NCBI RefSeq assembly: GCF_003865375.1
Contig: NZ_RQVS01000020.1
Span: 1-32,431, forward strand
Length of the DNA: 32,431 nt
Origin: Gulosibacter macacae
GTDB taxonomy: Bacteria; Actinomycetota; Actinomycetes; Actinomycetales; Microbacteriaceae
Direction of reading: 5' to 3'
Within the stretch, counting starts at the first letter, position 1; every line of letters starts with the position of its first letter. Both the position numbers and the translations under genes were made by a program. The notes below the pieces were generated by a model that ran no database searches, had not been told where the DNA came from, and saw only the letters and a program-made list of their open reading frames with translations. This document shows, in pieces, positions 3,943-24,325 of the stretch.

Positions 3943-3957
3943 GATACGTAGCGTATC
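3943..3957. promoter_or_regulatory. Predicted operator, site 1 (GATACG-TAG-CGTATC)
   Basis: This perfect inverted repeat has 6-bp arms and a 3-bp spacer, and extends to 7 bp with the flanking C/G. It sits in the 109-bp divergent region between the cyclodeaminase-family gene and the aldehyde dehydrogenase, so it could control both. Variants of the same 15-bp element occur at 6445, 15185 and 23271, each at a promoter. A TANNNT-type -10 candidate for the + gene is TATGCT at 3967-3972. The cognate regulator is unknown. Confidence 0.72.
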
Positions 3958-4004
3958 GCATTGCGCTATGCTGGGCAAGACATCCACTCGACGAGGAGCG
4001 CAAG

Positions 4005-5381
4005 ATGGCGATCGCGACCGTGAACCCCACCACCGGCAAGACCGAGATGCTCATTGAGCCGCACTCCGCGGCCGAGGTCGACGAGCGCATCGGGCAGGCG
4101 CACGCGGCTGCCGCAGAGCTCGGTCGAACGACATTCGAGCAGCGCCGTGCCTGGATGCACGCTGCGGCGGACTTTCTCGAGGGCCACGCCGAGGGTCTCG
4201 GCGAGCTCATCACGGTCGAGATGGGCAAGCCGATCGCGCAGTCGGTCGCTGAGGTGCGCAAGTCGGTGAAGGCGATGCGCTTTTACGCCGATCACTCCGA
4301 GACGTTTCTCGCAGATGTGCCGCTCGACGATCCTGCGCGGGTCGGCGCGTCAGCGGCCTGGTCGGTCTACCAGCCGCTCGGCGTCGTGCTCGCCGTGATG
4401 CCGTGGAACTACCCGATCTGGCAAGTCGTCCGCTTCGCGGCGCCAGCGCTCATGGCCGGAAACGCGGGGCTGCTCAAGCACGCGTCGAACGTGCCGCAGG
4501 CGGCGATGCTGTTCGACGACCTCTTCGAGCGCGGTGGTTTCCCGAAGGGGTCGTTCCGCACGCTCCTCATCGGCGGCGGCGAGGTCGCGCGCGTCATCGC
4601 TGATGACCGCGTTGCGGCCGTCACCCTCACCGGCTCCGAGTCGGCAGGGCGCTCGGTTGCGGCGACGGCCGGCGATCACCTGAAGAAGGCGGTGCTCGAG
4701 CTCGGTGGTTCCGACCCGTTCGTCGTGCTGCCCTCGGCGGACATCGCGGAGGCGGCGAAGACCGCGGTGGCGGCTCGCGTCAACAACAACGGCCAGGCCT
4801 GCATCGCGGGCAAGCGCTTCATCGTTCACACCGACGTCTACGAGGAGTTCGCCACCGAGTTCGTCCGGCGCATGTCCGAACTCGTGGTCGGCGACCCGCT
4901 CCGCCCTGAGACGGAGGTCGGCCCGATGGCTACCGAGCAGGGGCGGCAGGACGTCGTCGATCTCGTCGAGGACGCCCGGGCCAAGGGCGCGACGATCCTC
5001 ACCGGCGGTACGCTGCACGACGGTCGCGGCTGGTTCTATGCACCGACCGTCATCGCCGATCTCCCGAATGACGCCAGACTCGTGCAGGAGGAGGCCTTCG
5101 GTCCGGTCGCATCACTCTACCGCGCGTCCGACGTCGGCGACGCGCTCCGCATCGCGAATCAGACGACGTTCGGCCTCGGGAGCGCCGTGTGGACGAATGA
5201 TCCGAGCGAGCAGGAGCGATTCACCCGCGAGCTGGATGCCGGCGCCGTCTTCATCAACGGCATGACCGTGTCGTACCAAGAGCTGCCGTTCGGTGGCATC
5301 AAACGGTCGGGATTCGGTCGCGAGCTGGCCGAGGTCGGCCAGCGCGAGTTCTGCAACTTGAAGACCGTCTGGAAGGCCTGA
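4005..5381 (+). CDS. NAD(P)-dependent aldehyde dehydrogenase, succinate-semialdehyde dehydrogenase type
   Basis: This 458-residue aldehyde dehydrogenase has the length and features of the GabD1-type succinate-semialdehyde dehydrogenase subfamily. The oxyanion Asn135 is in MPWNYP, Lys158 is in LLKHASN, the general base Glu232 is in LELGGSDP, and the nucleophile Cys266 is in [11 protein letters not shown]. The C-terminal signature [11 protein letters not shown] is intact. It oxidises an aldehyde to the acid in the cytosol. In this cluster the aldehyde probably comes from the divergent aldolase-type operon or from ring-fission products (inference). The gene follows operator site 1 and has a GAGGAG Shine-Dalgarno before ATG 4005. 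True substrate range cannot be deduced. Confidence 0.92.
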
Positions 5382-5433
5382 CCGGAGCGGCGCGTTCGAT
5401 TCGGCCGATCGGCGGGGAACCGAGGGCACCCTC

Positions 5434-6348
5434 ATGGACTACAACCTTCTGCGGCCGTTGAGGGCGCTTCTCGAGGAACGCAGCGTCACCCGTGCCGCCG
5501 AGCGCCTACACCTGTCGCAGCCGTCGATGTCAGGCGCTCTCGCGAAGCTCCGAGCTCACTACGAGGACGAGCTGCTCGTGCGGCGCGGCAATCTTCACGA
5601 GCTCACGCCGCTCGCCGAGCGGCTGCTCGGCGTGCTGCCCACCGCGATTTCCGAAGTCGACCACGTCCTTCGGCTGCAGTCGGGTTTCGAGCCCGCTTCG
5701 AGCGAGCGCACGTTCGTCATCGCCGGGGTGGATGCGGCCATCGCGCGCGTCGCGCCGCCCCTCCTGCAGCTGGTCGCCGCGGAGGCTCCGGGAGTTCGGT
5801 TCGAGTTCCCGGCCGTCGACGGCCGACTCGTCGCGTCCGTGCCCGATTCGCTTCGCACGATCGACGGGGCCGTCCTTCCGCACGGGTACGCGTCGGGACT
5901 CGCGCGTCTCGATCTCCCGCCCGAATCCTGGGTGTGCTTGGTCGACGCCGAGGCGGGGGAAAAGGGGCTGCTCGATCGGCCGTGGGTCGAGACCATTCCC
6001 GCGCGAGAAGGCCTGCCGCCCGCGGCGATGCAACTGCGGATGCGCGGCATCGAGCTCGTGACCGTTGCGGCGACCCCGCACTTCTTCGTCCTGCCGTCGC
6101 TGTTGATCGGAACCGACCGGGTGGCGCTCGTGCCACGCGATCTTGCGGAGCGCGTAGTCGCGAACATCGACCGATTGCGGATGGTGGCGACGCCGGTCGA
6201 GCTCGAGCCGATTCGCGACGCATTCTGGTGGCACGGCGATCACGAGCGCGATGAGGGCCATCGGTGGCTCCGCGGTGCCCTCGCGGTGGTGCGGGACGGG
6301 CTCATCGGCGGGACCGATGGCGACTATCGCGGACTCGATCTTCAGTGA
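5434..6348 (+). CDS. LysR-family transcriptional regulator
   Basis: This 304-residue protein has an N-terminal winged helix-turn-helix (LRPLRALLEERSVTRAAERL, then HLSQPSMSGALAKLR; residues about 5-40). A periplasmic-binding-type effector domain follows (about 90-300). The N-terminus resembles the NodD/PcpR/LinR branch, which often responds to aromatic compounds. It starts 53 bp after the aldehyde dehydrogenase and precedes the hydroxylase operon, from which a strong hairpin separates it. It is a candidate activator of the flanking operons. The 15-bp shared operator is not a typical T-N11-A LysR box, so LysR is not its obvious reader. Confidence 0.9.
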   Translation: MDYNLLRPLRALLEERSVTRAAERLHLSQPSMSGALAKLRAHYEDELLVRRGNLHELTPLAERLLGVLPTAISEVDHVLRLQSGFEPASSERTFVIAGVDAAIARVAPPLLQLVAAEAPGVRFEFPAVDGRLVASVPDSLRTIDGAVLPHGYASGLARLDLPPESWVCLVDAEAGEKGLLDRPWVETIPAREGLPPAAMQLRMRGIELVTVAATPHFFVLPSLLIGTDRVALVPRDLAERVVANIDRLRMVATPVELEPIRDAFWWHGDHERDEGHRWLRGALAVVRDGLIGGTDGDYRGLDLQ

Positions 6349-6354
6349 TGATCA

Positions 6355-6389
6355 GTCGCGTGCGAGCCTGAGTGCAGGTCGCACGCGAC
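6355..6389 (+). terminator. Hairpin terminator after the LysR gene
   Basis: An 11-bp perfect inverted repeat, GTCGCGTGCGA (6355-6365) and TCGCACGCGAC (6379-6389), encloses a further 4-bp CCTG/CAGG stem with an AGTG loop. It starts 7 bases after the LysR stop codon and separates that gene from the promoter of the hydroxylase operon. Confidence 0.75.
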
Positions 6390-6413
6390 GAGGGTCGAGA
6401 CGGCGCATGGATG

Positions 6414-6442
6414 CTGACAACTGGGCCTTCCATGGGTAAGAT
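6414..6442 (+). promoter_or_regulatory. Predicted sigma-70-type promoter of the hydroxylase operon
   Basis: The -35 element CTGACA (6414-6419) matches 5 of 6 consensus bases. It is separated by 17 bp from a -10 element TAAGAT (6437-6442), which fits TANNNT. Transcription would start near 6449, inside operator site 2, an arrangement suited to repression. Confidence 0.65.
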
Positions 6443-6444
6443 AC

Positions 6445-6459
6445 GAAACGATACGTACT
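6445..6459. promoter_or_regulatory. Predicted operator, site 2 (GAAACG-ATA-CGTACT)
   Basis: This variant of the 15-bp inverted repeat overlaps the predicted transcription start of the hydroxylase operon. It matches site 1 at most arm positions and keeps the central CG-N3-CGTA core. The overlapping 10-mer ACGATACGTA (6448-6457) is identical to bases 3941-3950 of site 1, although offset relative to the repeat centre. Two GATACG half-sites lie at 6440 and 6450. Confidence 0.55.
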
Positions 6460-6478
6460 GGACACAAGGAGGTGTCTG

Positions 6479-7999
6479 GTGGTGGAAGCAATTGACGTGG
6501 ACGTCGTCGTGATCGGCGGCGGTCCGGCGGGCGTCGCGGCGCTCGCGCAACTCGGCGACGCCGGACTCACCGCAATCGGATTCGAGCGGGACGCCGACAT
6601 GTGGCCGACGGCTCGCGCCGTGCACTTCGATGGCGAGACGATGCGCTCACTGCAGCGTCTCGGCGTCGCTGAACAGTTCGCGGGCATCACCGTGCCCATG
6701 CGAAGCGTCGAGATCATCAACGAGGCCGGCGAGGTGCTCGTGCACGCCGACACCGATCGCCTCGGCTCGCAGGCGTGGAGTGATCACATCAGCTTCCATC
6801 AGCCCGACATCGAACGGCTCATGCGCACGGTGGTCGACGCCGCCGAGGGCGTCGAGCTTCGTCTCGGCCATCGGGTGACCGGGGTCCACGAAATCGACGG
6901 CGCGGTGAACGTCCGCACCGTCGACCGCGAGGGTGCAGAACGAGTCACGGTCGCCCGCTGGGTGATCGCCGCGGACGGCGCCCGCTCCGAGACGCGTCAG
7001 CGGCTCGGCATCACCGGTGAGAAGTTCGGCGAAGATGCCCAGTGGCTCGTGGTCGACGGCCAGCTCGTCGACGCGCCGGGCTACGCCGCCGACATGGTGC
7101 AACTCGGCGCCTACACGCGACCTGCGCTGTGGCTGCGGCTCCCCGGCACCCGCGTCCGCATGGAGTTCATGCTCATGCCGGGTGACGACCCCGACGAGAT
7201 CGTGACGCCCGAGGCCATCGAGCGGCTCAGTCGCGGGGTGCTCCCCGCGGACCGGTTCGCGCCCGATCGTCGCGCGATCTACACCTTCCGTGGCCGGATT
7301 GCCGAGCGTTGGCGCGACGGCCGCATCTTCCTCGTCGGCGACGCCGCCCACCAGGCCCCGCCGCTGTTTGGTCAGGGTTTGTGCGCCGGCATGCGCGACG
7401 TCGAGAATCTCGTCTGGAAGCTCGACCTCGTGGCGCGCGGCAAGGCCGACGAATCGCTCCTCGACACCTACGAGAGCGAGCGCAAGCCCCACGCCACCTA
7501 CTGGGTCGAGACCGCCGCGAACCAGGCCGTCATCATCCAGACCACCGACCCGGTGGTCGCCGCCCAGCGCGACGAGTTCATCAAGGCGCACCCCGAGGCC
7601 TCGGCCGAGCCGAGTGCCCCGCCGCTCGGCCCCGGTCTCCACGAGGGCGACCGGGACGAGCGCGCCGGCCGCCTCGGGATGCAGCCGATCCTCGCCGATG
7701 GGGTGCGCCTGGACGACATGGTGCGCCGCCGTTTCCTCGTCGCGACCACGCGCGAGCTCTACGACGGGCTCTCCGACGACGTGAAGTCGATCCTCGACGC
7801 CGATGACGAGACCGTCGTGCTGCTCGACCCCGCCAAAGTGTCACAACTGCTCGACGACGTCGGCGCCAGTGCCGTCGTCCACCGACCCGACCACTACGTG
7901 CTCGGCGTCGCCGACACGCCCGCCGACCTCGAACGCCTCGTGCGTCGCATCCCCACGCTCGCCCCCTCGCCCGCCGCGGTCGCGGCCCAGGCCAACTAG
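6479..7999 (+). CDS. FAD-dependent aromatic hydroxylase, MhpA-like
   Basis: This 506-residue class A flavoprotein monooxygenase has all three diagnostic motifs: GGGPAG (residues 13-18) for the FAD ADP moiety, the DG motif VIAADGARSETRQRLG (162-177), and the GD motif around FLVGDAAHQAPPLFGQG (284-300). The C-terminal thioredoxin-like region also fits the 3-(3-hydroxyphenyl)propionate hydroxylase (MhpA) group. The expected reaction is NAD(P)H- and O2-dependent ortho-hydroxylation of a phenol, making a catechol for the extradiol dioxygenase encoded next. An AAGGAGG sequence (6466-6472) precedes GTG codons at 6479 and 6482; either could be the start. It is the first gene of a five-gene operon. 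The exact phenol is unknown. Confidence 0.88.
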   Translation: MVEAIDVDVVVIGGGPAGVAALAQLGDAGLTAIGFERDADMWPTARAVHFDGETMRSLQRLGVAEQFAGITVPMRSVEIINEAGEVLVHADTDRLGSQAWSDHISFHQPDIERLMRTVVDAAEGVELRLGHRVTGVHEIDGAVNVRTVDREGAERVTVARWVIAADGARSETRQRLGITGEKFGEDAQWLVVDGQLVDAPGYAADMVQLGAYTRPALWLRLPGTRVRMEFMLMPGDDPDEIVTPEAIERLSRGVLPADRFAPDRRAIYTFRGRIAERWRDGRIFLVGDAAHQAPPLFGQGLCAGMRDVENLVWKLDLVARGKADESLLDTYESERKPHATYWVETAANQAVIIQTTDPVVAAQRDEFIKAHPEASAEPSAPPLGPGLHEGDRDERAGRLGMQPILADGVRLDDMVRRRFLVATTRELYDGLSDDVKSILDADDETVVLLDPAKVSQLLDDVGASAVVHRPDHYVLGVADTPADLERLVRRIPTLAPSPAAVAAQAN

Positions 8000-8016
8000 T
8001 CCCATTGGAGATCGTC

Positions 8017-8958
8017 ATGTCGTTCAGCCCGATAACCCACATCCGCCACTTCGACCTCGCCGTGCCCGACTTCGATCAGCAGGTCGAGTTCTACAAGAAC
8101 CACTGGGGCCTGACCGTGCAGCACGACGACGGCGACGTCGTCTACTTCGCCGCCGAGGGCTCGCCCGAGCAATACATCACGCGCGTGCGCCGCTCGCCCG
8201 ACAAGCGGCTCGACCTGGTCGCCTTCGGCGCGGCGGATCGCGCCTCGGTCGACCGGCTTGCTCAAGAGCTCGGGTCCAAGGGCATCCGGCTCGTGTCCGA
8301 GCCCGGCGACCTGCAGACCCTCGGTGGCGGCTACGGCTTCCGGTTCTTCGACCTCGAGGGCCGCACCATCGAGGTGTCGGCGGAGGTCGAGACCCGCAAG
8401 CACCGCAAGATCGAGGAGCGCGAGTCGATCCCCGTGCGGCTCTCGCACGTCGTGCTCAACTCGTCGCAGCCCGAGAAGATGCTCGCCTGGTACGAGGAGC
8501 ACCTCGGATTCCGGCTTTCCGACACGCTGAACCACCCGCACGTCGGTGACCTGTTCTACTTCCTGCGCTGCAACTCGCAACACCACTCGATGGCGATCGC
8601 CCGCGGGCCGCACGCGTCACTCCAGCACGCGTCCTTCGAGCTGCGCGGGCTCGACGAGTACATGCGCGGGAGCGGGCGGATGATTCGCGCGGGGTACCGG
8701 AAGATCTGGGGCCCGGGCCGACACGCGGCCGGCGACAACACGTTCACCTACTTCGTCGACCCGAACGGCAACACGATGGAGATGACGACCGAGCTCGAGA
8801 TGATCGACGAGGACACCTGGCACCCGACGATCTTCGACGTGCAGGAGCCCGAGACTTCCGACCAGTGGGGCACCGGCGGCGACATGGACGAGTTCATCTC
8901 GAACGAGATGTTCAACGACTCCGACAACGCCCACCTCTTCGTCGCCCCTCCCGTGTGA
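8017..8958 (+). CDS. Type I extradiol ring-cleavage dioxygenase (VOC superfamily)
   Basis: This 313-residue two-domain vicinal-oxygen-chelate protein has the length and fold of BphC-type extradiol dioxygenases. The C-terminal domain keeps the iron ligands His144 (RLSHVVLN), His204 (LQHASFE) and Glu255 (NTMEMTTE). It also has a His189/His190 pair in the catalytic His position and Tyr245 before FVDPNGN. It should cleave a catechol next to its hydroxyls with Fe(II) and O2. I chose ATG 8017 because GGAG lies 6 bases upstream; an in-frame TTG at 8005 lacks support. It lies 17 bp after the hydroxylase gene, so hydroxylation and ring cleavage are co-transcribed. The ring-fission hydrolase expected next is not in this operon; FAH-family genes elsewhere may fill that role. 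Confidence 0.9.
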   Translation: MSFSPITHIRHFDLAVPDFDQQVEFYKNHWGLTVQHDDGDVVYFAAEGSPEQYITRVRRSPDKRLDLVAFGAADRASVDRLAQELGSKGIRLVSEPGDLQTLGGGYGFRFFDLEGRTIEVSAEVETRKHRKIEERESIPVRLSHVVLNSSQPEKMLAWYEEHLGFRLSDTLNHPHVGDLFYFLRCNSQHHSMAIARGPHASLQHASFELRGLDEYMRGSGRMIRAGYRKIWGPGRHAAGDNTFTYFVDPNGNTMEMTTELEMIDEDTWHPTIFDVQEPETSDQWGTGGDMDEFISNEMFNDSDNAHLFVAPPV

Positions 8959-8965
8959 GCCCACG

Positions 8966-9679
8966 GTGACCGTCCGACTGTCCTGCTTCGTGACTCCCGC
9001 GCCGCTGATTGCGGCGCGGGAGCGCGGTCTGCTCGACCATGTCGACCTCGTCGAGCTGCGCTCGAGCGGCAGCCCCGGACAACTGCGCGGTCTGCTCGAC
9101 GGTGAGCTCGACGGCGCGGTGACCGCGATGGACAATCTCTTCGCGTGGGTCGGGGCCGGCACCGAGCTCGCGCTCGTCGGCCAGGTCGAGCCGACCACGC
9201 CGCTCGCGTTCATCGCGCGCGGCGGGCTGCAAGACCTCACCGACCTTGCCGGCCGACGCGTCGCTGTCGACGCCTTCGACAACGGATTCTCCCTCGCCGC
9301 CCGTCACCTGCTCGCCGAGCACGGTATCGAGCCCGAGTGGCACGAGGTCGGTGGCGTGCGCGAGCGGTACGACGCGCTCATCGCCGGCACGACCGATGCC
9401 ACCCTGCTCGGGCCGCCGTTCGATGATGATGCCCTCGACGCCGGTTGCGAGCTCCTCGCCCGGGTGCAGGATTCGCATCCCGCGTTTCCTGGCCAGGGGC
9501 TCGTCGTGCGCGCCGACCGCCTCGGAGACCCCGAGGTCCGTGCCGTGCTCGGGGCGCTCGTGGCGGGCGGTCTGCTGCCCGTCGACCCCGCCGGTCTGGA
9601 CGTGCTCGTACGCATCCGTCGCGAACTCGGACTCCTCGCCGACGACGTCGGTTTTCCCACAATCCTCCGATCCCCTTGA
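8966..9679 (+). CDS. Cytosolic type 2 periplasmic-binding-fold (NMT1/SsuA-like) protein
   Basis: This 237-residue protein resembles NMT1/THI5/SsuA-type substrate-binding domains. Segments include FVTPAPLIAARERGLLD, then GELDGAVTAMDN, then a DLAGRRVAVDAFDNGFSLAARHLL hinge segment. The start is GTG 8966, only 7 bp after the dioxygenase stop. There is no signal peptide or lipobox and no permease or ATPase in this operon, so the product is predicted to be cytosolic. Proteins with this fold but no transport role include 4,5-dihydroxyphthalate decarboxylase and thiamine-precursor enzymes. It could be an enzyme acting on the pathway or a small-molecule carrier or sensor. Function is unknown. Confidence 0.75.
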   Translation: MTVRLSCFVTPAPLIAARERGLLDHVDLVELRSSGSPGQLRGLLDGELDGAVTAMDNLFAWVGAGTELALVGQVEPTTPLAFIARGGLQDLTDLAGRRVAVDAFDNGFSLAARHLLAEHGIEPEWHEVGGVRERYDALIAGTTDATLLGPPFDDDALDAGCELLARVQDSHPAFPGQGLVVRADRLGDPEVRAVLGALVAGGLLPVDPAGLDVLVRIRRELGLLADDVGFPTILRSP

Positions 9680-9689
9680 AAGGTCAACG

Positions 9690-10976
9690 ATGACGAACCC
9701 TGCTGCCGTACTCTCCACGCCCTGGAAGATCAACGGCCTCACGATCAAGAACCGCTTCGTACTCAGCCCCATGGCGGTGCTGCAACCGACCGAGGACGGC
9801 CGGCCGAGCGATCAGTCGATCGCATTCCTTGCGCGGCGCGCCCAGGGGGGTGCCGGGCTGCTCATGGTGGGCGGCGGCGCCGCGACCGCGCGTGGTGTCG
9901 CGGAGGCCCCGTTCCAGCCGCTCATGCGCTCCGACGACGATCGATTCATTCCCGGTCTCAAGCGTCTCGTCGATGCCGTCCACGAGTATGACGTTCCGGT
10001 GATCCATCAGATCTTCCCCAGTTTCGGTGCCATGGGCATCCCCGGCGAAGGGCGGACCACCCGAGCCGCGAGCCCGAAGCCCGTGCACATGGGGGCACCC
10101 CGACTGCCGAACGGTTTCTACATCCCCGGCGGGCGCACGAACCCGACGCCGGTCGAGATCACGAAGGACGAGATCCGCGAGGTGCAGGAGGCCACGGTCG
10201 CCGCCGTCCGCCGCTGCAAGGATGCGGGCTTCGATGGCATCGAGCTGGGGGCGCACATGCGGTACCTCTACTCGTCGTTCCTTTCGCCGCGCACGAACTG
10301 GCGCACCGACGAGTACGGTGGATCGGCCGAGAACCGTGCCCGCATTCTCGTCGACACGATCCGTGCCCTTCGCGCAGAGGTCGGCGACGACTACCCGATC
10401 GGTGTCCGGATGAGCGTCAACGATCACCTTCCCGACGGTCAGGGCCCCAAGGGGTACGCGGAGGTCGCCCAGTTCATCGCTGCGGCGGGCGTCGACTACA
10501 TCGCGCTAACCGACGGCAACTACGAGTCGATGGATGCGAACCTGCCACGCGAATCGGGGGCGATCCTCAGTCACGGCGAGGCGCAGATCTTCCGCGAAGC
10601 GCTACCGGATGTGCCGCTGCTCATCAGCAGCACCTACGACCCGCAGCAAGCGGCCGACGCGGTGGAATCCGGCATCGTCGATGGCTTCATGCTCGCGCGC
10701 CAGTTGCTCGCCGACCCCGACTTCCCGAACAAGGTGATGACCGGGCGCACGAACGACATCATCTGGTGCGACCACAACAACTCGTGCCTTCGCCGTCTCA
10801 TCTTCAACGTGCCGGTGACGTGCTCGAAGAACCGCGAGACCGGGCGCGAGTCGGGCGCAGCGGCGCGCAAGGCGACCCTGCAGCAGAACGTGCTCGTCGC
10901 GGCAGCCGGCAATCCGGCGCTCATGGGCATCGCCGACAAGCTCGCGTCGGCGAAGAACCGGAAGGCGAACGCATGA
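9690..10976 (+). CDS. Old Yellow Enzyme-family flavin oxidoreductase, single TIM-barrel domain
   Basis: This 428-residue protein covers only the FMN TIM-barrel of the 2,4-dienoyl-CoA reductase / 2-enoate reductase group; the C-terminal flavin and NAD domains are absent. Recognisable parts are WKINGLTIKNRFVLSPM (12-28), GIELGAHMRYLYSSFLSPRTN (183-203), DEYGGSAENRAR (207-218) and a GFMLARQLLADPDFPNK segment (332-348). The iron-sulfur motif is odd: Cys360, Cys366 and Cys378 remain, but the usual C-x2-C-x3-C-x11-C pattern is not reproduced, so the cluster may be lost or altered. It probably reduces a conjugated double bond or demethylates a small substrate (family inference). GAAAGG precedes ATG 9690. 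It overlaps the next gene by ATGA. Confidence 0.86.
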   Translation: MTNPAAVLSTPWKINGLTIKNRFVLSPMAVLQPTEDGRPSDQSIAFLARRAQGGAGLLMVGGGAATARGVAEAPFQPLMRSDDDRFIPGLKRLVDAVHEYDVPVIHQIFPSFGAMGIPGEGRTTRAASPKPVHMGAPRLPNGFYIPGGRTNPTPVEITKDEIREVQEATVAAVRRCKDAGFDGIELGAHMRYLYSSFLSPRTNWRTDEYGGSAENRARILVDTIRALRAEVGDDYPIGVRMSVNDHLPDGQGPKGYAEVAQFIAAAGVDYIALTDGNYESMDANLPRESGAILSHGEAQIFREALPDVPLLISSTYDPQQAADAVESGIVDGFMLARQLLADPDFPNKVMTGRTNDIIWCDHNNSCLRRLIFNVPVTCSKNRETGRESGAAARKATLQQNVLVAAAGNPALMGIADKLASAKNRKANA

Positions 10977-11674
10977 ATCAGCAGCCGGCCTACAAGCTTG
11001 TCATCCTGCTCGCTCGCGACCCCCAACGCGACCGCCACGACTTCGCCGCGGAGTTGCTCGAACTCGAGCGCACCGCCCCGATCGCCGCCGCCGGGCTGTT
11101 GCGCAGCGTCGTCACGACCGGTCTCGCCGCGGTGGACCCGGCCGACGAATCGCCGTTCGACGCCGCGATCGAGACCTGGTGGGCACGTAAAAACGATGCC
11201 GCCGACTGGGTCGTGTCGCGTGCCTTCGAGTACGAGTGGCTCGCGCCACGGATGCGGCTGCTCGCAGCGTTGCCGCATGCCATCGCCGGCGAGCCGGGTC
11301 GGCGCTGGGAGGCGGAGGAGCCGTACCCGGAGGGCGCCGTGCAGCTCATCGCGCTCACCACCGCCGTGCGTTCACTGCGGAAGGACGAGTTCGCGACCGC
11401 GTACGCGCGGCACGCCGACCTCGCGCTCGCAGGTGAGGAGTCGACGGCACGCATCGCCAGCCTCGAGTTCACGACCGCTCCGCTGGCACCGCCGTCGCGA
11501 TTCAGCGCCGACCGCGATGACGGCGTCGGCACGATCGTGTTCGCTTCGGCCGACGCGCTCGCCGCTGAAGTCGCGAGCGAGCACTACCGAGACGTCGTCG
11601 CCCCCGACGCGGCGGCGTTCAGCCACGCAGCCAACTCGGATGTGATGGTCGGGACGCCGACCGTCATCGCCTGA
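10973..11674 (+). CDS. EthD-like protein with two ferredoxin-fold repeats
   Basis: This 233-residue protein begins YKLVILLARDPQRDRHDFAAEL, the layout of an EthD (dimeric alpha-beta barrel) domain. A second similar unit occurs around residues 120-150 (LIALTTAVRSLRKDEFATAYARHADLA). EthD-type proteins are small accessory factors or enzymes often found in aromatic and ether catabolic operons. The start overlaps the stop of the flavin oxidoreductase by ATGA, so the two are translationally coupled and may work together. A strong bidirectional terminator follows. The EthD assignment comes from pattern only and is moderately sure; catalytic activity is unknown. Confidence 0.62.
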   Translation: MNQQPAYKLVILLARDPQRDRHDFAAELLELERTAPIAAAGLLRSVVTTGLAAVDPADESPFDAAIETWWARKNDAADWVVSRAFEYEWLAPRMRLLAALPHAIAGEPGRRWEAEEPYPEGAVQLIALTTAVRSLRKDEFATAYARHADLALAGEESTARIASLEFTTAPLAPPSRFSADRDDGVGTIVFASADALAAEVASEHYRDVVAPDAAAFSHAANSDVMVGTPTVIA

Positions 11675-11689
11675 TCCCTGACGATGGCA

Positions 11690-11727
11690 CAAGGGGGCGG
11701 GCACCTGGATCGGTGCCCGCCCCCTTG
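11690..11727. terminator. Strong bidirectional terminator
   Basis: A perfect 16-bp inverted repeat (11690-11705 and 11712-11727) has a 6-base TGGATC loop. AA on one side and TT on the other lie at the stem ends. It separates the convergent hydroxylase operon (ends 11674) and ABC importer operon (ends 11745). Confidence 0.9.
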
Positions 11728-11744
11728 CTCGTGCCGCGAGCGCG

Positions 11745-12569
11745 TCAGTTCGCGGCCGTGCTGCCCGCACTCGCGCGCATGATCATCTTGTGGATTCGCT
11801 CGCGCAACTCGAGATAGTCGGGCCGTGCCTTGGTGGTGAGCTGGTCGCGATCCGGGCCGAGCGGCACCGGGATCGTGGCGGCGACCGAGGCGGGTCGCCC
11901 GAAGAGCACGACCACCTGATCGGCCAGATAGACGGCCTCGTCGATGTCGTGGGTGACGAGGACGATCGTGACGCCGAGCCGGTCGCGGATCGAGAGCATG
12001 AGGTCCTCGAGATCGGCGCGCGTCTGCGCATCGACCGACGCGAACGGCTCGTCCATGATGAGCACCTCGGGGCGGTAGGCGAGTGAGCGCGCGATCGCGG
12101 CGCGCTGCTGCATGCCGCCCGACATCTCCCACGGGTAGAGACGGCCGTTGCCGGCAAGGCCGACCTGCTCGAGCGCCTCGGCGACCCGTGCGTCACGCTC
12201 GGCTCGATCGAGTCGATAGCGTCGCAGCGGCAGCGCGATATTGGCGTCGACGCGCATCCAGGGCATCAGCGAACGGCTGTAGTCCTGGAAGACGACGGAC
12301 ACTTCGGCCGGCGGTTCGGTCACGACGCGACCGTCGACGCGTACTTCGCCCGAGGTCGGTTCGATGAGGCGCGCGAGGCAGCGCAGCAGCGTTGTCTTGC
12401 CGGTACCGGAGGGGCCGACGATGCAGACGAATTCACCGCGATCGGCCTTGAAGGCGAGGTCGCGGAGGACCTCTTTGTCTCCGTACGACTTGCCGAGTCC
12501 GATGGCCTCGAGCTGTGGGACATCGGTCGCCGTGGTGGTGTTCATGGTGGCGGTCACTTCCTCGTTCAT
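11745..12569 (-). CDS. ABC transporter ATPase, SsuB/TauB type
   Basis: This 274-residue ATP-binding subunit has all nucleotide-binding motifs: Walker A GPSGTGKT (52-59), Q-loop VFQDYSRSLMPW (93-104), signature MSGGMQQR (149-156), Walker B VLIMDEP (169-175) and H-loop His207. It energises the importer formed with the two permeases and lipoprotein encoded upstream, and acts on the inner face of the membrane. ATG 12569 overlaps the permease stop by ATGA. An alternative ATG at 12545 has GAGGAAG upstream and would remove eight non-conserved residues. Confidence 0.93.
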   Translation of the reverse strand: MNEEVTATMNTTTATDVPQLEAIGLGKSYGDKEVLRDLAFKADRGEFVCIVGPSGTGKTTLLRCLARLIEPTSGEVRVDGRVVTEPPAEVSVVFQDYSRSLMPWMRVDANIALPLRRYRLDRAERDARVAEALEQVGLAGNGRLYPWEMSGGMQQRAAIARSLAYRPEVLIMDEPFASVDAQTRADLEDLMLSIRDRLGVTIVLVTHDIDEAVYLADQVVVLFGRPASVAATIPVPLGPDRDQLTTKARPDYLELRERIHKMIMRASAGSTAAN

Positions 12570-13327
12570 GCGCGCGACAACCGGTGCCACGACAGGACGT
12601 AGTGCTCGACGACGAGCAGGATGATGTTGAGCAGGTAGCCGATGATGCCGAGCAGCAGCATGCCCGACCACATTTCGGGCAGCGAGAACTGACGCTGCGC
12701 CTGCAGGATGAAGAACCCCATTCCTGCTGACGAGCCGAGCATCTCGCTGGCGACCATGAGGATCACCGACACGGCGAGGCTGGCGCGGATGCCGGCGAAG
12801 ATCTGCGGGGCGGCGGCGGGGAGCACCATGCGGAAGATGCGGTCGACCGGTCGCACGCGGTTGGAGCGCGCGACATCGAGCACGGCGGGATGCACGCCGC
12901 GCACGCCGTCGATCGTGTTCAGCAGGATGGGCCACAGCGCGCCGAGGACGATCACCAGCACTCGCATGCCGAGGCCGAGACCGACGAGCTGGATCGCCAG
13001 CGGGAGCAGGGCGACGGCGGGGAGGTACCGGAGGAATTGCAGCGCGGGACCGACGGCGTTCGCGACCCGGCCATTGAGGCCGAGCGCGACCCCCAGCGAG
13101 ACGCCGAGCACGATCGAGATCCCGAGTCCGAGGCCGATCGCTGCCATCGAGGGCGCGACGTGCTCGGGCACGAGCGAGAAGATCCAGAGCTCGAGGAACG
13201 TCTCGAGGATCTCGGGGAGCGGGGGGAAGTAGATCGACGTGCTCGAGGCGCTCGCGAACCACCAAAGCGCGATGAGCACCACCGGCAGAACGAGGGGGAG
13301 CAGGAAGCGTCCGGCAAACGTTCTCAT
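12566..13327 (-). CDS. ABC transporter permease, SsuC/TauC type (first of two)
   Basis: This 253-residue integral membrane protein has about six hydrophobic segments. It carries the binding-protein-dependent transport signature near residues 155-195 (SNRVRPVDRIFRMVLPAAAPQIFAGIRASL), where the coupling helix meets the ATPase. The ATG start overlaps the previous permease stop by ATGA. Two different permeases suggest a heterodimeric pore; in SsuABC/TauABC systems a single permease normally forms a homodimer. Confidence 0.9.
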   Translation of the reverse strand: MRTFAGRFLLPLVLPVVLIALWWFASASSTSIYFPPLPEILETFLELWIFSLVPEHVAPSMAAIGLGLGISIVLGVSLGVALGLNGRVANAVGPALQFLRYLPAVALLPLAIQLVGLGLGMRVLVIVLGALWPILLNTIDGVRGVHPAVLDVARSNRVRPVDRIFRMVLPAAAPQIFAGIRASLAVSVILMVASEMLGSSAGMGFFILQAQRQFSLPEMWSGMLLLGIIGYLLNIILLVVEHYVLSWHRLSRA

Positions 13328-14133: not shown

Positions 14134-15110
14134 GGCTTGTGCCAGATCAGGCCCGAGGTGTCGAACTCCTCCTCGATGAAGCCGTACTTGACGAGGATGG
14201 CACTCCATGCCTCCAGATCCTCAACGCTCAGGGATGAGTCGTAGCGGCCGAGCACCGCGTTCTCGATCGCGGCTTCCGAGAGCGTGGTGAACTCTGGCAG
14301 CACCGCACGGACCGACTCCGGGTTGTCGTTCGAGAAGTCAGCGGCCTCTTGGATCGCGGCGGTGAAGCGTTCGATCGCCTCGGCGTTGGCGCCGAGGTAG
14401 CTTTCGCTCGCGACCCACGTCATCGCGTTCATCCCCCCGATGCCCTCGGTGAACGGTTGCGCGACGACCTCGAGTCCCGCGGCCTTCGCGTTCGACAGGA
14501 ACGGGTCGACGATGAACGCGGCGTCGACGCGTCCCGCCTCGACCGCAGCGACCATGTCGGGGTAGGCGAGTTCGACGAAGTTCACGCTCGCAAGATCGAC
14601 GCCCGCCTCGTCGAGCAAGACGCGCGTGGCGAGCTCGGGGCCCGACTTGAGGCCGACGATCGCGATCGTCGTGCCGGCCAGGTCGGTGACGTCGGAGATA
14701 CCGCTGTCCGGCTTGACGACGATCGCGGTCGTGTCCTCCGCGGGGTCGGTCGGATAGCGGTCGCTGCCGCTCACGATCTGGATCGGCAGGCCCTTGGAAC
14801 CGGCGGTCACGGCGGCGACGGCGTTGATGAGCGCGACCTGGAGTTCACCGTTGATGAGCGAGGGGATCGCGGTCGACGTGTTCTGCACGACCACCGGGGT
14901 CACGTCCAGGCCGTGACGTTCGAAGATCCCTTCTTCGATGCCGACGTAGACGTTGGCGGCATTGATGATCGGGGTGATGCCCACGTTGATCGCGATGACA
15001 TCGTCGGCGCCGGCATCTGGCGTCGAAGGGGAGGTGCCCGCGGAGCAGCCCGTGAGGGCGAGCAGGGCCGCGGCAGCTGCGGCGAGCGCGGTGAGGCGAG
15101 TTCTGAGCAC
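14130..15110 (-). CDS. ABC transporter solute-binding lipoprotein, SsuA/TauA/NMT1 type
   Basis: This 326-residue binding protein starts with a lipoprotein signal: MLRTRLTALAAAA..., then lipobox LTGC with Cys22 as the lipidation site. It is therefore anchored outside the membrane. The mature part is a type 2 binding fold (INVGITPIINAANVYVGIEEGIFERHGLDV..., DLAGTTIAIVGLKSGPELATR...). It captures the substrate for the two permeases and ATPase encoded next. The start is GTG 15110 with AAGGAG upstream. Operator site 3 is 75 bp upstream, so import is probably co-regulated with the catabolic operons. The family transports sulfonates, nitriles and aromatic acids; the ligand here is not predictable. 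Confidence 0.92.
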   Translation of the reverse strand: MLRTRLTALAAAAAALLALTGCSAGTSPSTPDAGADDVIAINVGITPIINAANVYVGIEEGIFERHGLDVTPVVVQNTSTAIPSLINGELQVALINAVAAVTAGSKGLPIQIVSGSDRYPTDPAEDTTAIVVKPDSGISDVTDLAGTTIAIVGLKSGPELATRVLLDEAGVDLASVNFVELAYPDMVAAVEAGRVDAAFIVDPFLSNAKAAGLEVVAQPFTEGIGGMNAMTWVASESYLGANAEAIERFTAAIQEAADFSNDNPESVRAVLPEFTTLSEAAIENAVLGRYDSSLSVEDLEAWSAILVKYGFIEEEFDTSGLIWHKP

Positions 15111-15184
15111 GGGGTGACACTCCTTCGTGTCGTTGCGGCGGGGGACGTGCGTCCACGGGCCGAATCATTTGGCGCGGACCATTA

Positions 15185-15199
15185 GGTACGGCACGTATC
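15185..15199. promoter_or_regulatory. Predicted operator, site 3 (GGTACG-GCA-CGTATC)
   Basis: This is the same 15-bp inverted repeat as site 1 with one arm mismatch. It lies in the promoter region of the ABC importer operon. On the minus strand two overlapping TATGAT -10-like elements lie immediately upstream (15197-15207 on the + strand), so a bound protein would cover the promoter. Confidence 0.68.
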
Positions 15200-15221
15200 A
15201 TATCATAAGTTTGTGTCCCTG

Positions 15222-15248: not shown

Positions 15249-15310
15249 CGTGAGCGAGCGGGGCAGGTGCCGTCGCCGATCCCCGCCCCACCTGAATATC
15301 CCCGTGCCGC

Positions 15311-17295: not shown

Positions 17296-18623
17296 GCTGC
17301 AGCTCCGGTCTCGTGGCCGAAGTAGGCCGCGACGACGGCCTCCGTCGTGAGTCGGTCGCGAGGGATCTCGGCGAACACGGTGCGATCACGGAACACGAGC
17401 ACTCGGTCGACGAGTTCGACGAGTTCGTCGACCTCGCTCGAGAGCATCACGACGCTCATGCCGTCGGCGCAGAGTCGTTCGAGCGTCGCGTAGATCTCCC
17501 GCTTGGTCATGATGTCGACGCCACGCGTGGGGTCGTTGAGCAGCAGCACCTTCGGATCGGTCGCGAGCCACCTCGCGAGCAGCACCTTCTGCTGACTGCC
17601 GCCGGAGAGGCTCGAAATCGGATCACCCTGATCGGCGAGTCGGATGTTCAGCGCTTTCACGACGTCGGCGAACCGCTCGGCCATCCGTTTGACGTCGAGG
17701 AACGGGCCGTTGGTGTCGAGGCGCATCGTCGGCAGGGCGAAGTTCTCCCGGATCGACATCGTCTCGAACAGCGACTCGCCACGGCGCTCGCGAGGAAGGT
17801 AGGCGACGCCGATCTTCGATCCGTTGCCCTGGTGCACCTCGATGTCGGGAGTCAGGATGCGGATCACCGCGCCCTCGCCGCCCGCGATGCCGCCGAGCCG
17901 CTTGAGGAACAGATCCTGCCCGTGGCCCTCCAGTCCCGCGAGTCCGACCAGTTCGCCGCTGCGCAGCTCGAAGTCGACCGGCTCGGCGTCGGGATGGAGC
18001 CGCACGCCTTCGGCGCGGAGCGTGACGGCGCCGAGCTCGCGGTGCCGCTCCTCACGCTCGAATCGTCCCGCCGTGCCGGTCATGTCGCCGACGAGCCGCT
18101 CGATCGACAGCTCGTCGCGGGTGACGTGCGACACCGTGCGACCCGAGCGCAACACGGTGACGGCGTCCGAGATCTCAGCGACTTCGTCCATCCGGTGGGA
18201 AATGAACAGGATGCTCGTGCCCTCCGCGGCGAGTCGGCGCATCTCGGTGAAGAGCCGGTCCCGCGTGAGCACGTCGAGCGCGGCGGTCGATTCGTCGAGC
18301 ACGAGCACTCGCGGCTCGCGGACGAGGGCGCGCACGATGCAGACGGCCTGCCGCTCGGACAGCGAAAGCGTCCCCGCGGGGCGGTCGAGGTCGATGCCGT
18401 CGACGAGCCTGCCGAGCACGTCGGCGGCGATGCGTCGTTGCTCCTGACGGCTGCGGCGTCTCGTGAACACGCCATCAGCGCCGAGCCAGATGTTGTCGAG
18501 CACCGACTGATTCGCGGCCGTGAGCACCTCTTGGAACACCACGGCGATGCCGTGGTCTGCGGCGTGGCGGGGGCTCCGGAAGTCGGCGGGCTCGCCGTCG
18601 AGGGTGAACTCGCCCTCGTCGGC
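17292..18623 (-). pseudogene. Ribose-type ABC ATPase (RbsA-like), 5'-truncated
   Basis: The frame encodes about 443 residues of a two-domain sugar-type ATPase, normally about 500. Homology starts at ADEGEFTLDGEPADFRSP, so the first 50-60 residues including the N-terminal Walker A are missing. Present are Q-loop VVFQE, first signature LSLSERQ, first Walker B VLVLDES, H-loop FISHRMDE, second signature LSGGSQQKVLLARW and second Walker B LLLNDPTRG. Upstream on the minus strand the frame stays open but runs through the antisense of the binding-protein gene, so no real start exists. With no Walker A in the first domain the protein should be inactive. The missing part probably left with the divergent promoter region. 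Confidence 0.85.
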
Positions 18624-19568
18624 ACGGCGCCCGCGGCTCCGTTCATCGCCGTGTACCAGGAGGCGCTCGCCGCGTCGCTCGAGAGCGCCGGTGTCGAGAT
18701 CGTGCTCAACGTGGCGCCGAACGATCCGTCCGACGTGCCCGGGCAGCTCCAGCAGTTCAGCCAGGCCCTCTCGCTGAACCCCGACATCATCTTCCTCAAC
18801 CCGGTGGCCCCGGAGCCCGCGATCGATCTCGTCAACGAGGCCCACGCGGCGGGCATCCCGGTCGTCTCGCTCGTCGTGCCGATCGACAGCCCCAACGCCG
18901 TCTCCGTCGTCTACAACGCCGTACTCCAGTCGATGACGACCGCGTCGTCGCTCTTCGGCGCGATCGGCGGCTCGGGCGATGTGCTCGAGGTGACCGGCGT
19001 GCCGGGTATCCCGAACCAGCTGTTCTGGGACGCGGGCCGCGATCATGCGCTCGAGCTCTGCCCCGAGATCGAGATCGTCGGTTCTGTGCAGGGCCTGTTC
19101 CAGCCGCCGTTGGCGCAGCAGGCGGTCGTGCAGTACCTCTCGACGAACCCCGCGGGCGTCGACGCCGTCATCCAGACGGGCACGATGGGCTGGGCGGTGC
19201 GCGACGCGTTCGTGCAGTCGGGCCACGAGGTGCCGCCGATGCAGGACGTCGGCGCGTCGCAAGGTATGGCCGCGTACGCGGCGCAGCATCCCGACTACCT
19301 CTACTACGGCTCCATCACCCCGCCGGTGTCGATGGCGCAGGGCGCCGCGCAGATCGGTCTCAAGATCCTGGCGGGTGCCGGGCCGCGGGTGAACCAGGTC
19401 GTCTGGGCGCCGCACATCATCGACAGCAGCACGGTCGGCGACTTCGTCGACCCGTCGTGGACCACCGACGACGGCACCGACCTCACCTCCGACGAGGTGT
19501 ACTTCACCGACGAGCAGACCGCCGAGTTCTTCACGAACCCGGAGCTCGGTCCGCAGAGCGCGGAGTAG
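18612..19568 (+). pseudogene. Ribose-type solute-binding protein (RbsB-like), 5'-truncated
   Basis: About 318 residues of a type 1 sugar-binding-fold protein remain, starting at ALVGTAPAAPFIAVYQEAL and ending at TAG 19566-19568. The signal peptide, lipobox and start codon are missing. Upstream in this frame the sequence is the antisense of the ATPase remnant, with no plausible start or ribosome-binding site. The body is well preserved (DPSDVPGQLQQFSQAL, NPDIIFLNPVAP, AAGIPVVSL, GVDAVIQTGTMGWAVRDAF). It faces the truncated ATPase head to head with a breakpoint within about 12 bp. Without an export signal the product could not serve a transporter. Confidence 0.85.
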
Positions 19569-19575
19569 GGCGCGG

Positions 19576-19612
19576 TCGAGGGCGGATCGGCCGGGCGCCG
19601 GTCCGCCCTCGA
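19576..19612 (+). terminator. Hairpin terminator after the binding-protein remnant
   Basis: Arms 19576-19591 and 19597-19612 pair over 16 positions with one T/G wobble, around the loop CGGGC. It lies 7 bases after the binding-protein stop and ahead of the AraC gene, so the AraC gene probably has its own promoter in the short gap or within this stem region. Confidence 0.75.
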
Positions 19613-19636
19613 GGCGTCCCTCACGGAGGCTTCCTC

Positions 19637-20563
19637 ATGACGATGGTGCTCGACACCCGCGCGGTCGCACCCGCCGAGCGCGCGGCGTACTGGACGGCGG
19701 GAATCTCGAAACGGCTGTTCCCGATGCAGGTCGACTCCCGCAGCGCCGTGTCGTTCGACGCCCGCCTCACCGGCGGCGAACTCGGCCCGATCACGATCTC
19801 GGCAATCAGCGGCGGGCCGCACCGCGTGGGACGAACGGCGCGAATGATCGCGAACGCCGATCCCGAACGGTTGCTGTTCTACCTCGTGCGCCGGGGGGAG
19901 TGCGTGCTGGAGCAGGCGGGCCGTGGCTGCGTGCTGCGCGTCGGCGACCTCGCGGCGCAAGAGACCTCCAAACCCTCCCTGTTCGAGGTGACGACCGGCT
20001 TCGAGATGCTCATGCTCGCGGTGCCGAAGTGGTTCCTCGGCGACGTCGCGCGACACGTCGCCGAGCGCACCGCGACGCGCGCGGCGAGCACCGACTCGCC
20101 ACTGCTGCGGGTTTCGTCGCCGCTGCTCGCGGGGCTCGAGCGGGCCGCCGACGGGAGCGGCTTCGCGAGCGCCGAGGCCGAGTCCGCCGCTCGCATGCTG
20201 CTGCCGTTGATCGGGGCGATCTACGGCGAGCCCGACGGCCCGTCGGCGCGAGGCGACGAGTTGCGTGAGCGGATGCGTCGCTTCGCTCTCGCGAACCTCC
20301 ACGACCCGCAGCTCGGTCCCGAACGTCTCGCCAACGAGCATTTCGTCTCGGTGCGCTACGTGCAGAAGCTGTTCGCCGCCGACGGCGGCGTCTCGGCGTG
20401 GATTCGCGAGCGACGGCTCGAGGGCGCGGCTCGCGATCTGCTCGAGAGCCGCCTCACGGTGGCCAGCATCGCCGTGCGGTGGGGCTACTCCGACGCCGCG
20501 AGCTTCAGCCGTGCCTTCCGCCGCGTGCACGGCGTTTCTCCGCGGGAACTGCGCGCAGCTTGA
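19637..20563 (+). CDS. AraC-family transcriptional regulator
   Basis: The protein has 308 residues. An N-terminal AraC-binding-like sensor domain (about 1-190) is followed by the double helix-turn-helix AraC DNA-binding domain (about 205-305: LANEHFVSVRYVQKLFAADGG, then LTVASIAVRWGYSDAASFSRAFRRVHGVSPRELR). I chose ATG 19637 because CGGAGG lies 7 bases upstream. The layout resembles FeaR/NitR-type regulators, which often respond to aromatic or amine substrates. It is convergent with the VAO-type oxidase gene and could control that gene or the neighbouring transporter (inference). Its target sites were not identified. Confidence 0.92.
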   Translation: MTMVLDTRAVAPAERAAYWTAGISKRLFPMQVDSRSAVSFDARLTGGELGPITISAISGGPHRVGRTARMIANADPERLLFYLVRRGECVLEQAGRGCVLRVGDLAAQETSKPSLFEVTTGFEMLMLAVPKWFLGDVARHVAERTATRAASTDSPLLRVSSPLLAGLERAADGSGFASAEAESAARMLLPLIGAIYGEPDGPSARGDELRERMRRFALANLHDPQLGPERLANEHFVSVRYVQKLFAADGGVSAWIRERRLEGAARDLLESRLTVASIAVRWGYSDAASFSRAFRRVHGVSPRELRAA

Positions 20564-20566
20564 ACG

Positions 20567-20619
20567 ACGGCGAGAGGCGGCCCCCGCATCCGACGGATGC
20601 GGGGGCCGCCTCACGCCGT
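20567..20619. terminator. Strong bidirectional terminator
   Basis: An 18-bp perfect inverted repeat (20574-20591 and 20595-20612, loop GAC) is extended by an outer 6-bp stem, ACGGCG/CGCCGT, after one mismatch. It separates the convergent AraC (ends 20563) and oxidase (ends 20626) genes. Confidence 0.9.
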
Positions 20620-20625
20620 GCGGGC

Positions 20626-22224: not shown

Positions 22225-22422
22225 GATGTCCTCACATCTCTTCGTTGAGCGAGCGGATGTCGCGGTCGACGACTTCCGGTGTAGCCGGGTGCGGGACATG
22301 TTCGGTGCGACGGTGCATTCCCGGCACCATTCCGTGCAGTTCCGGCACGAACGCGGTCGCGAGCGTCGCGCCGCCGCACACTGGTGCGCACTGACCGCGA
22401 TGACGTGCAAAGGAGAACGAAC
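22225..22422. promoter_or_regulatory. Divergent promoter region with repeated TTCC-GCAC elements
   Basis: This 198-bp gap separates the divergent oxidase and SDR genes. It holds three direct-repeat-like units beginning TTCC: TTCCCGGCAC at 22318, TTCCGTGCAG at 22330 and TTCCGGCACG at 22340. The 13-mer GGTGCGGGACATG (22288-22300) recurs with one change in the palindrome before the TetR gene. AAGGAG (22409-22414) is the SDR ribosome-binding site. No copy of the 15-bp operator was found here, so this pair may have different control. Confidence 0.45.
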
Positions 22423-23199
22423 ATGTCGGAAGGACGCCTCGCAGGCAAAGTGGTGCTGATCACCGGGATCGGCAGCGGAATGGGTCGAGTGACGGCGGAG
22501 CTGTTCGCCGCGGAGGGCGCGACGGTCGTCGGATGCGGACTCAGCGCGGAGGGCTCGACCGAGACGGCGCGCCGCATCGAGGCGGCGGGGGGCATCATCG
22601 ATGCGACGGCGCCGGTCGACCTCTCGGATCGAACCCAGGTAGCGGCATGGATCGACGGGGCTGCCGAACGGCACGGCCGCATCGACGTGCTCTACAACAA
22701 CGCGAGCATGCCGAAGTTCGGGCCGTTCGCCGACCAACCGGTCGAAGATTACGACTTCACGATCCGCAATGAACTCGACCTCGTCTGGCACGCCTGCCAA
22801 CTTGCGTGGCCGCATCTCGCCGCCGTCCGGGGGGCCATCGTGAACATCGCGTCGGTGGCGGGGTTGCAGGGCGCGCGGGCGCTCCCGCAGGCCGCCCATG
22901 CGGCCGCGAAGGGCGGCGTGCTCGCGCTCACGCGCCAGCTTGCCGCCGAGGGGGTCGCCGCAGGGATCCGCGTGAACTCGGTGTGCCCGGGCGTGATGGG
23001 GACGCCGCCGATCCTGCGTATGTACGAGGAACTCGGCGACGCCGCTCCCGTCGCCTCGATCGTCGAGCGCACGATCGACGGCCGGCCGGGGGACCCGAAG
23101 GCGGTCGCCTGGGCTGGGCTCTACCTCGCCTCGGACGAGGCGACGTGGGTCACCGGGGCGAACATCGTCGTCGACGGCGGGGCTGGCGCCTACATGTAG
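22423..23199 (+). CDS. SDR-family oxidoreductase with His in place of the catalytic Tyr
   Basis: This 258-residue short-chain dehydrogenase/reductase has the cofactor motif TGIGSGMG (14-21), the NNAS variant of NNAG (92-95), the catalytic-type Ser144 (NIASVAG) and the substrate-loop PG motif (CPGVMGTPP). The usual Y-x3-K pair reads HAAAK (159-163), so the catalytic tyrosine is replaced by histidine. Activity may be altered or rely on His159. It is divergent from the VAO-type oxidase and could oxidise or reduce that enzyme's alcohol or ketone product (inference). The start ATG 22423 has AAGGAG nearby. The downstream FAH gene has its own promoter. Confidence 0.88.
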   Translation: MSEGRLAGKVVLITGIGSGMGRVTAELFAAEGATVVGCGLSAEGSTETARRIEAAGGIIDATAPVDLSDRTQVAAWIDGAAERHGRIDVLYNNASMPKFGPFADQPVEDYDFTIRNELDLVWHACQLAWPHLAAVRGAIVNIASVAGLQGARALPQAAHAAAKGGVLALTRQLAAEGVAAGIRVNSVCPGVMGTPPILRMYEELGDAAPVASIVERTIDGRPGDPKAVAWAGLYLASDEATWVTGANIVVDGGAGAYM

Positions 23200-23253
23200 G
23201 GCGAACACCGGTCACCTCGGGCCGCCTCGCCTCGAGGGGCTCGGGGTGTCTCA

Positions 23254-23282
23254 TTGACAGGATGCGATGCGGTGCGTAGCGT
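23254..23282 (+). promoter_or_regulatory. Predicted promoter of the FAH-cupin-ligase operon
   Basis: A perfect -35 hexamer TTGACA (23254-23259) is followed after 17 bp by TAGCGT (23277-23282), which fits the actinobacterial -10 pattern TANNNT. Operator site 4 covers the -10. The FAH-family start codon is about 33 bp downstream. Confidence 0.65.
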
Positions 23283-23285
23283 ATT
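23271..23285. promoter_or_regulatory. Predicted operator, site 4 (GGTGCG-TAG-CGTATT)
   Basis: This is the most diverged copy of the 15-bp inverted repeat. The TAG-CGTAT right half matches site 1 except at the last base, and the left arm differs at two positions. It overlaps the predicted -10 element, where a repressor would act. Confidence 0.55.
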
Positions 23286-24323: not shown

Positions 24324-24325
24324 CC

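Follow-up and report, generated by a model that had tools for sequence, protein, structure and literature searches.

A candidate TetR-family repressor and its predicted palindromic operators in a duplicated catabolic island of Gulosibacter macacae

A stretch of 32,431 nucleotides from Gulosibacter macacae (NCBI RefSeq assembly GCF_003865375.1, contig NZ_RQVS01000020.1), which we call the window throughout and at its full length, carries a catabolic gene island in which similar 15-bp inverted repeats stand in front of four separate transcription units. Are these four sites operators that place the units under a single regulator, and, if so, which regulator binds them? The island itself encodes three regulators, of the LysR, AraC, and TetR types. 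From comparisons within the host genome and across related ones, we consider it likely that the four sites serve as operators for the island TetR, a member of the PF16859 subgroup encoded at 28410 to 28988, and that this protein would repress the four units together.

The 15-mers that a preliminary description had placed at 3943, 6445, 15185, and 23271 are present letter for letter, and all four are intergenic. Site 1 (3943 to 3957) lies inside the 109-bp gap between the divergent genes for an ornithine cyclodeaminase/mu-crystallin family protein (OCD) and an aldehyde dehydrogenase (ALDH). Site 2 (6445 to 6459) is upstream of an FAD hydroxylase whose open reading frame (ORF) starts at 6479; site 3 is upstream of an NMT1-type ABC importer on the minus strand, whose binding-protein ORF starts at 15110; and site 4 (23271 to 23285) is upstream of an FAH operon starting at 23316. 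The 6-bp arms reported for every site hold as a register but not as pairing: by eye, only at site 1 do all six positions pair (a perfect 6+6 palindrome), against 5 of 6 at site 3 and 3 of 6 at each of sites 2 and 4. Sites 2 and 4 had also been said to overlap a start or −10 element. For site 2 the promoter scan agrees, since the 20-mer described below shares bases with the end of a −10-like TAAGAT (CTGACA-17-TAAGAT); at site 4, a TTGACA-17-TAGCGT pair can be read by eye whose spacer and −10 fall under the site, but the scan did not report that pair. Neither did the scans return a promoter at sites 1 and 3, so that one promoter-like pair was found in total across the four regions.

The sites might be no more than chance or compositional palindromes, and the statistics of the 15-mer offer this explanation some support. 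The consensus GRWRCGNNNCGTAYY, with no mismatch allowed, gives six strand matches at four places in the window, where 0.10 would be expected, an enrichment that can be called suggestive at best because the consensus was drawn post hoc from the same four sites. Allowing up to two mismatches removes the enrichment: the window then has 71 matches against 57.8 ± 9.9 expected, a number reached by 11 of 100 shuffles. In the 2.82-Mb genome, the consensus gives 17 rows, little more than the 12 of its reversed control; of its 13 distinct places, six are in the window or in a second copy of the island, described below, and seven are elsewhere, namely five inside long ORFs, one in a 112-residue ORF, and one between ORFs. 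Taken by itself, the 15-mer is therefore not specific, and we reject it as a genome-wide signature. Matches within coding sequence were likewise rejected as operators; examples are those at 20802 (where the gene has 92% identity to its counterpart in the second copy) and 31238 of the window and at 29151 of C36, the contig that carries the second copy.

The operator unit looks longer than this, about 20 bp, and would consist of two 15-mers offset by 5 bp with the ideal palindrome GATACGATACGTATCGTATC. Of 28 strong sites, which include the training sites, 20 have a second 15-mer register at 5 bp that scores among the best 5% of random flanks; offsets of 3, 4, 6, 7, 8, and 9 give 1 or 2 sites each, and an offset of 10 gives nine. 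The predicted operators, none assigned to a strand, then become operator 1 at 3938 to 3957 (AACACGATACGTAGCGTATC), operator 2 at 6440 to 6459, operator 3 at 15185 to 15204 (GGTACGGCACGTATCATATC), and operator 4 at 23266 to 23285 (GATGCGGTGCGTAGCGTATT). A 20-mer matrix built from 18 sites of other genomes ranks exactly these four first to fourth in the window, with scores of 23.6, 20.3, 20.2, and 15.6, respectively, followed by 9.2. Scores of at least 14 occur at 0.06 per window in 150 resampled windows, and the matrix maxima are 4.1 to 12.4 in 11 off-island stretches of the host genome and 4.1 to 10.8 in the clusters of genomes G036, G041, G094, G206, G172, and G012. A search of the host genome with up to three mismatches to the ideal 20-mer returned window site 1 and two places in the second island copy, three in total with none outside the islands, and nothing with the control; window sites 2 to 4, at four to six mismatches (four for site 3), are beyond the reach of that search. 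There is some circularity here, in that the training sites in other genomes were first chosen by their likeness to the preliminary consensus. An earlier training set also included two C36 sites; the strict 15-mer and 20-mer matrices used none from the host genome.

The second copy of the island offers a comparison within the same genome. It runs from about 104.8 to 130.6 kb of C36 and is colinear with positions 163 to 30383 of the window, at a DNA identity of 72 to 78% (about 75%). Proteins with clear matches share 62 to 95% identity, the extremes being an NMT1-like protein at 62% and the dioxygenase and DHDPS-family protein at about 95%; one doubtful ORF is at 50%. Sites 1, 2, and 4 recur at the matching promoters of C36 within otherwise diverged intergenic DNA. 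Site 1 is part of a 23-bp block that the two copies share without a difference, the counterpart of site 2 reads GAAACGGTACGTCCA, with CGAAACGRTACGTMC as the form of operator 2 kept there, and that of site 4 reads GGTGCGTAGCGTATC. The four highest scores of the 20-mer matrix in C36 are operators 1 and 4, a site at a sugar importer, and operator 2; the fifth (15.0), within the coding sequence of tetR, is probably due to chance. In the C36 stretch we found no counterpart of the NMT1-type importer, with its site 3, or of the MFS gene. The importer (11745 to 15110) and operator 3 sit between genes that are adjacent in C36, as if inserted, and the MFS gene (27007 to 28350) is likewise without a C36 counterpart.

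A search for the DHDPS-family protein in 398 genomes of the host's family gave 11 genomes at E ≤ 1e-60, including the host, the other ten having a single match each; among 396 genomes drawn from the phylum, only the host had a match. A contig scan with two peptide patterns added one relative, a contig (L021) of a Leucobacter metagenome-assembled genome (MAG), G788, and a plasmid search gave four short matches at 73 to 78% identity. In the related clusters, the motif lies upstream of OCD in four of four (G309, G323, G251, and G788; in G323 the gene facing OCD encodes a LysR rather than ALDH), upstream of the hydroxylase in three of four (G309, G323, and G251), and upstream of FAH in four of four; with the window and C36 counted, each of the six clusters whose FAH promoter was read has a motif-like site there. 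None of the clusters read yielded a promoter matching that of site 3. Other motif sites precede thiolase and FMN-oxidoreductase genes, and in C36, G309, and G323 a site lies between the ATPase and binding-protein genes of the sugar importer. At the corresponding place (about 18612 to 18630), the window lacks some 600 bp that C36 and G309 have between the genes for the sugar-type ABC ATPase and its binding protein; this gap, whether a true deletion or an artifact of assembly, takes with it the stretch holding the operator-like site and probably both N termini.

We applied a fixed rule to the 200 bp upstream of every homologue of a window gene in the four other genomes, allowing up to two mismatches. 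The motif was found before OCD in 4/4, ALDH in 3/3, the hydroxylase in 3/4, and FAH in 4/4 cases, 14 of 15 in total (11 of 12 distinct gaps, as OCD and ALDH share one gap in three genomes), versus 1 of 41 upstream regions of the remaining island genes, that of the LysR facing the OCD gap in G323; the division into first and other genes was the analyst's choice. A de novo search over all half-sites with gaps of 0 to 10 in 17 promoter regions (2,678 bases) placed GATACG-N3-CGTATC first, in 14 of the 17, and the best words in 20 resampled sets reached 3 to 5. The 17 regions were bounded by hand from gene positions after the motif places had been seen, and the one at the G323 sugar importer was extended past the mechanical ORF start. 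With the motif at matching promoters of C36 and of four genomes, the proposal that the four units form one regulon is supported. The fixed-rule contrast, the search of the 17 regions, and the conservation in diverged DNA, together with the matrix ranking and the exact-consensus count, make chance or composition a very improbable source of the sites.

Which protein, then, reads the motif? The preliminary description had predicted a repressor not obviously identified, and here a candidate can be named. The protein encoded on the plus strand at 28410 to 28988 has the domain make-up of a PF16859-subgroup TetR-family regulator, a TetR_N helix-turn-helix (PF00440; 39.8 bits, cutoff of 24) followed by TetR_C_11 (PF16859; 71.5 bits, cutoff of 32). 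We take it to be the likeliest repressor because the host genome, counted for the PF16859 subgroup, holds two such genes, one per island copy, and the closest 20-mers are confined to the islands. The two TetRs are 85% identical. Relatives at 59 to 70% identity occur in G309, G323, and G788, all of which have the motif, and the recognition-helix region GVSKTTIYRWWP is identical in all five proteins. At E ≤ 1e-35, relatives were found in 4 of the 398 genomes (the host, G309, G323, and G012); the gene is near full length in the first three, each of which carries the motif, and the G012 copy ends at a contig end, near a weaker motif match. A motif-like site also lies just upstream of tetR in G788 and, in weaker form, in G309.

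The 20-mer, at up to three mismatches, occurs in 13 of the 398 genomes. Once the host, G309, and G251 are set aside, 10 off-island matches are left, in 10 genomes of seven genera, and six of them, from four genera, stand at the start of a TetR-like ORF; all six proteins belong to PF16859 and keep K-x-T-(I/L)-Y-R-x-W. These six palindromes (GATACG..ACGT..CGTATC-like) lie near position 1501 of L057, L060, L062, L063, L066, and L067; in the last four the site overlaps or lies inside the mechanical ORF start, and the true start may be further in. A broader proposal builds on them: GATACG-N2-ACGT-N2-CGTATC may be a subgroup-wide operator code of PF16859 TetRs in the host's actinobacterial family, with two dimers reading it at a 5-bp offset, and the two diverged TetRs may cross-regulate the two 75%-identical, 26-kb island copies as one network. 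We hold this compound proposal tentatively and stop somewhat short of favoring it.

Several observations weigh against assigning the four sites to the island TetR. Site 4 is the weakest by score: 1 of the 150 null windows reached 16.4, the largest value and above its 15.6, and on the strict cross-genome 15-mer matrix it scores 10.4, when off-island stretches reach 12.9 and one control cluster reaches 11.5. Position seems to speak for site 4 more than score does; the case for site 3 appears to be its score and nothing else. G788 has no site 2 at its hydroxylase promoter, and the fixed rule finds the motif before tetR in only 1/3 and before the sugar-importer ATPase in 0/2 cases. When all 58 upstream regions, most of them operon internal, were searched de novo, the motif (13 of 58) was not first, G+C-rich words dominating ahead of or level with it and resampled sets reaching 9 to 14, a result that also favors chance. 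The window and C36 have no more than a weak match directly before tetR, and it falls inside a hairpin-like repeat. G323 has the TetR yet no 20-mer within three mismatches, and 4 of the 10 off-island matches have no TetR-like ORF that we could find, the other six coming from four genera; of the four, two lie near an exonuclease in genomes of the same genus (with the protein scanned in one), a third near a GDSL lipase, and the fourth near a resolvase together with an unidentified ORF. Lastly, the search for the TetR came up empty in G251, a motif-bearing MAG that is 83% complete and in which both contigs end inside the cluster. A TetR relative was also not found in G206, G094, G172, G156, G036, and G041, several of which are incomplete or have distant clusters, so that the absence of the motif from TetR-less clusters is soft evidence.

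Two side observations concern these regions. In L058 and L059, from two genomes of one genus, GAGACGACACGTATCGTCTC stands at 1501 in the gap beside the exonuclease gene (scanned in L058), and no TetR-like ORF was found near it. In both island copies, an inverted repeat separates tetR from the gene before it, the ligase or MFS gene (window 28351 to 28409; about 8560 to 8640 of L002); it is terminator-like by eye in C36, and the window fold is not significant (z of −1.36). We rejected this repeat, at window 28369 and C36 28591, as an operator for its low score and hairpin-like form.

The G251 case would suit a regulator encoded elsewhere, possibly a TetR of another subgroup, with the island TetR controlling something else. 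We judge this quite unlikely, as the host genome has no further PF16859 match and close TetR relatives are rare, those with a near full-length gene all accompanying the motif. The other island regulators deserve a separate look, since LysR and AraC proteins often control catabolic operons: the LysR (5434 to 6348) or the AraC (19457 to 20563) might bind the sites, which would then be activator sites, and both genes have counterparts in C36 and in several relatives. However, G251 keeps both sites with no LysR between ALDH and the hydroxylase, G323 keeps the motif with no AraC orthologue in its cluster (a 31% match lies 10 kb or more away), and the 20-mer is tied to TetR genes in unrelated genomes, elsewhere in which LysR and AraC genes were not searched for. 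A LysR box has the form T-N11-A (ATAC-N7-GTAT); site 1 is ATAC-N5-GTAT, and we rejected the LysR box on spacing. Control by LysR or AraC thus appears unlikely.

With the island TetR as the preferred regulator, a mechanism can be outlined. In the absence of inducer, TetR dimers on or beside the promoters would block RNA polymerase at the OCD-DHDPS-thiolase unit with ALDH-LysR, the hydroxylase-dioxygenase unit, the ABC importer, and the FAH-cupin-ligase-MFS unit, which has tetR downstream. Occlusion would be the simplest mode of action because operators 2 and 4 lie at a −10-like element and operator 1 midway between two divergent starts. Each site would probably take two dimers, on overlapping 15-bp palindromes 5 bp apart. 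A substrate or intermediate of the pathway could free the TetR and induce all units together; if tetR is cotranscribed with the FAH operon, induction would also make more repressor and reset the system. We infer all of these elements (TetR binding, repression rather than activation, the dimer of dimers, the inducer, and cotranscription of tetR) from sequence.

Precedents for such an arrangement exist in the TetR family. DarR of Rhodococcus and Mycobacterium is a repressor that binds c-di-AMP and, as a dimer of dimers, a 20-bp GATAC/GTATC operator with overlapping palindromes (PMC10636190). The predicted island operators resemble it in their 20-bp, GATAC-type form and overlapping palindromes, the dimers here being predicted from sequence. 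Yet the DarR palindrome is ATACT-N4-AGTAT and that of the island GATACG-N3-CGTATC, so that the half-sites differ in both spacing and sequence, and none of the 15 PDB chains matched by the island TetR is named DarR. Binding as dimers of dimers is also described for CprB, QacR, CgmR, SlmA, and Ms6564, the last being a global DNA damage and repair regulator of M. smegmatis with a 31-bp site (PDB 4JL3; PMC4150764). The island TetR matches Ms6564 with 57.5 bits over residues 4 to 134, and the recognition-helix regions are very similar (GVGKQTIYRWWP in Ms6564 versus GVSKTTIYRWWP); however, the island protein is proposed as a local catabolic regulator. SAV576 of S. avermitilis represses its neighbors and itself from a 15-bp palindrome in a divergent promoter, with one site over a potential −10 (PMC3742746), a layout like that seen here, although its CCRTACRVYGTATGS has TAC-N3-GTA and the island sites have TAC-N5-GTA. 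The closest solved sequence is PDB 2FQ4 (104.6 bits, residues 8 to 175), with a similar helix region (TIYKWWPNKAAVV) and a generic TetR-family name only. No description of this operator set was found in the open-access literature among the matches listed.

The genes, assigned mainly by Pfam, are grouped here by proposed unit. On the minus strand, OCD (2882 to 3895) is followed by the DHDPS-family gene (1847 to 2866) and a thiolase-like gene (161 to 1651); facing them on the plus strand, ALDH (4005 to 5381; also by NCBIfam) precedes the LysR gene. The putative operator 2 unit (6479 to 11674, plus strand) comprises the FAD hydroxylase (6479 to 7999), an extradiol dioxygenase (8005 to 8958), the NMT1-like protein (8966 to 9679), an FMN oxidoreductase (about 9657 to 10976), and an EthD-domain protein (about 10970 to 11674). 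The importer under the predicted operator 3, on the minus strand, consists of the NMT1 binding protein (14130 to 15110), a permease (13324 to 14208), and an ATPase domain in ORF 11745 to 13436, ORF 12566 to 13327 having been left out of the profile scan. The proposed operator 4 unit (23316 to 28350, plus strand) holds FAH (23316 to 24323), a cupin (24284 to 24934), an acetoacetate-CoA ligase (24931 to 26910), and the MFS gene, with tetR next. The FAD hydroxylase, extradiol dioxygenase, two FAH-family proteins, ALDH, thiolase-like protein, and acetoacetate-CoA ligase together suggest an aromatic pathway of the meta-cleavage type. After the second FAH-family gene, a Mutator-family transposase lies on the minus strand at 30922 to 32271, at the contig end.

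The system is very probably one more case of a type of gene control well known in bacteria, and its regulation is otherwise ordinary. With it, a so far uncharacterized island for aromatic-type degradation gains a named candidate switch, and the PF16859 subgroup of TetR regulators gains a predicted operator. The duplicated island with its two near-identical repressors lends itself to asking how paralogous repressors avoid cross-talk or use operators in common, and the six palindromes at PF16859 TetR starts in four genera point to a possible operator code of the subgroup.

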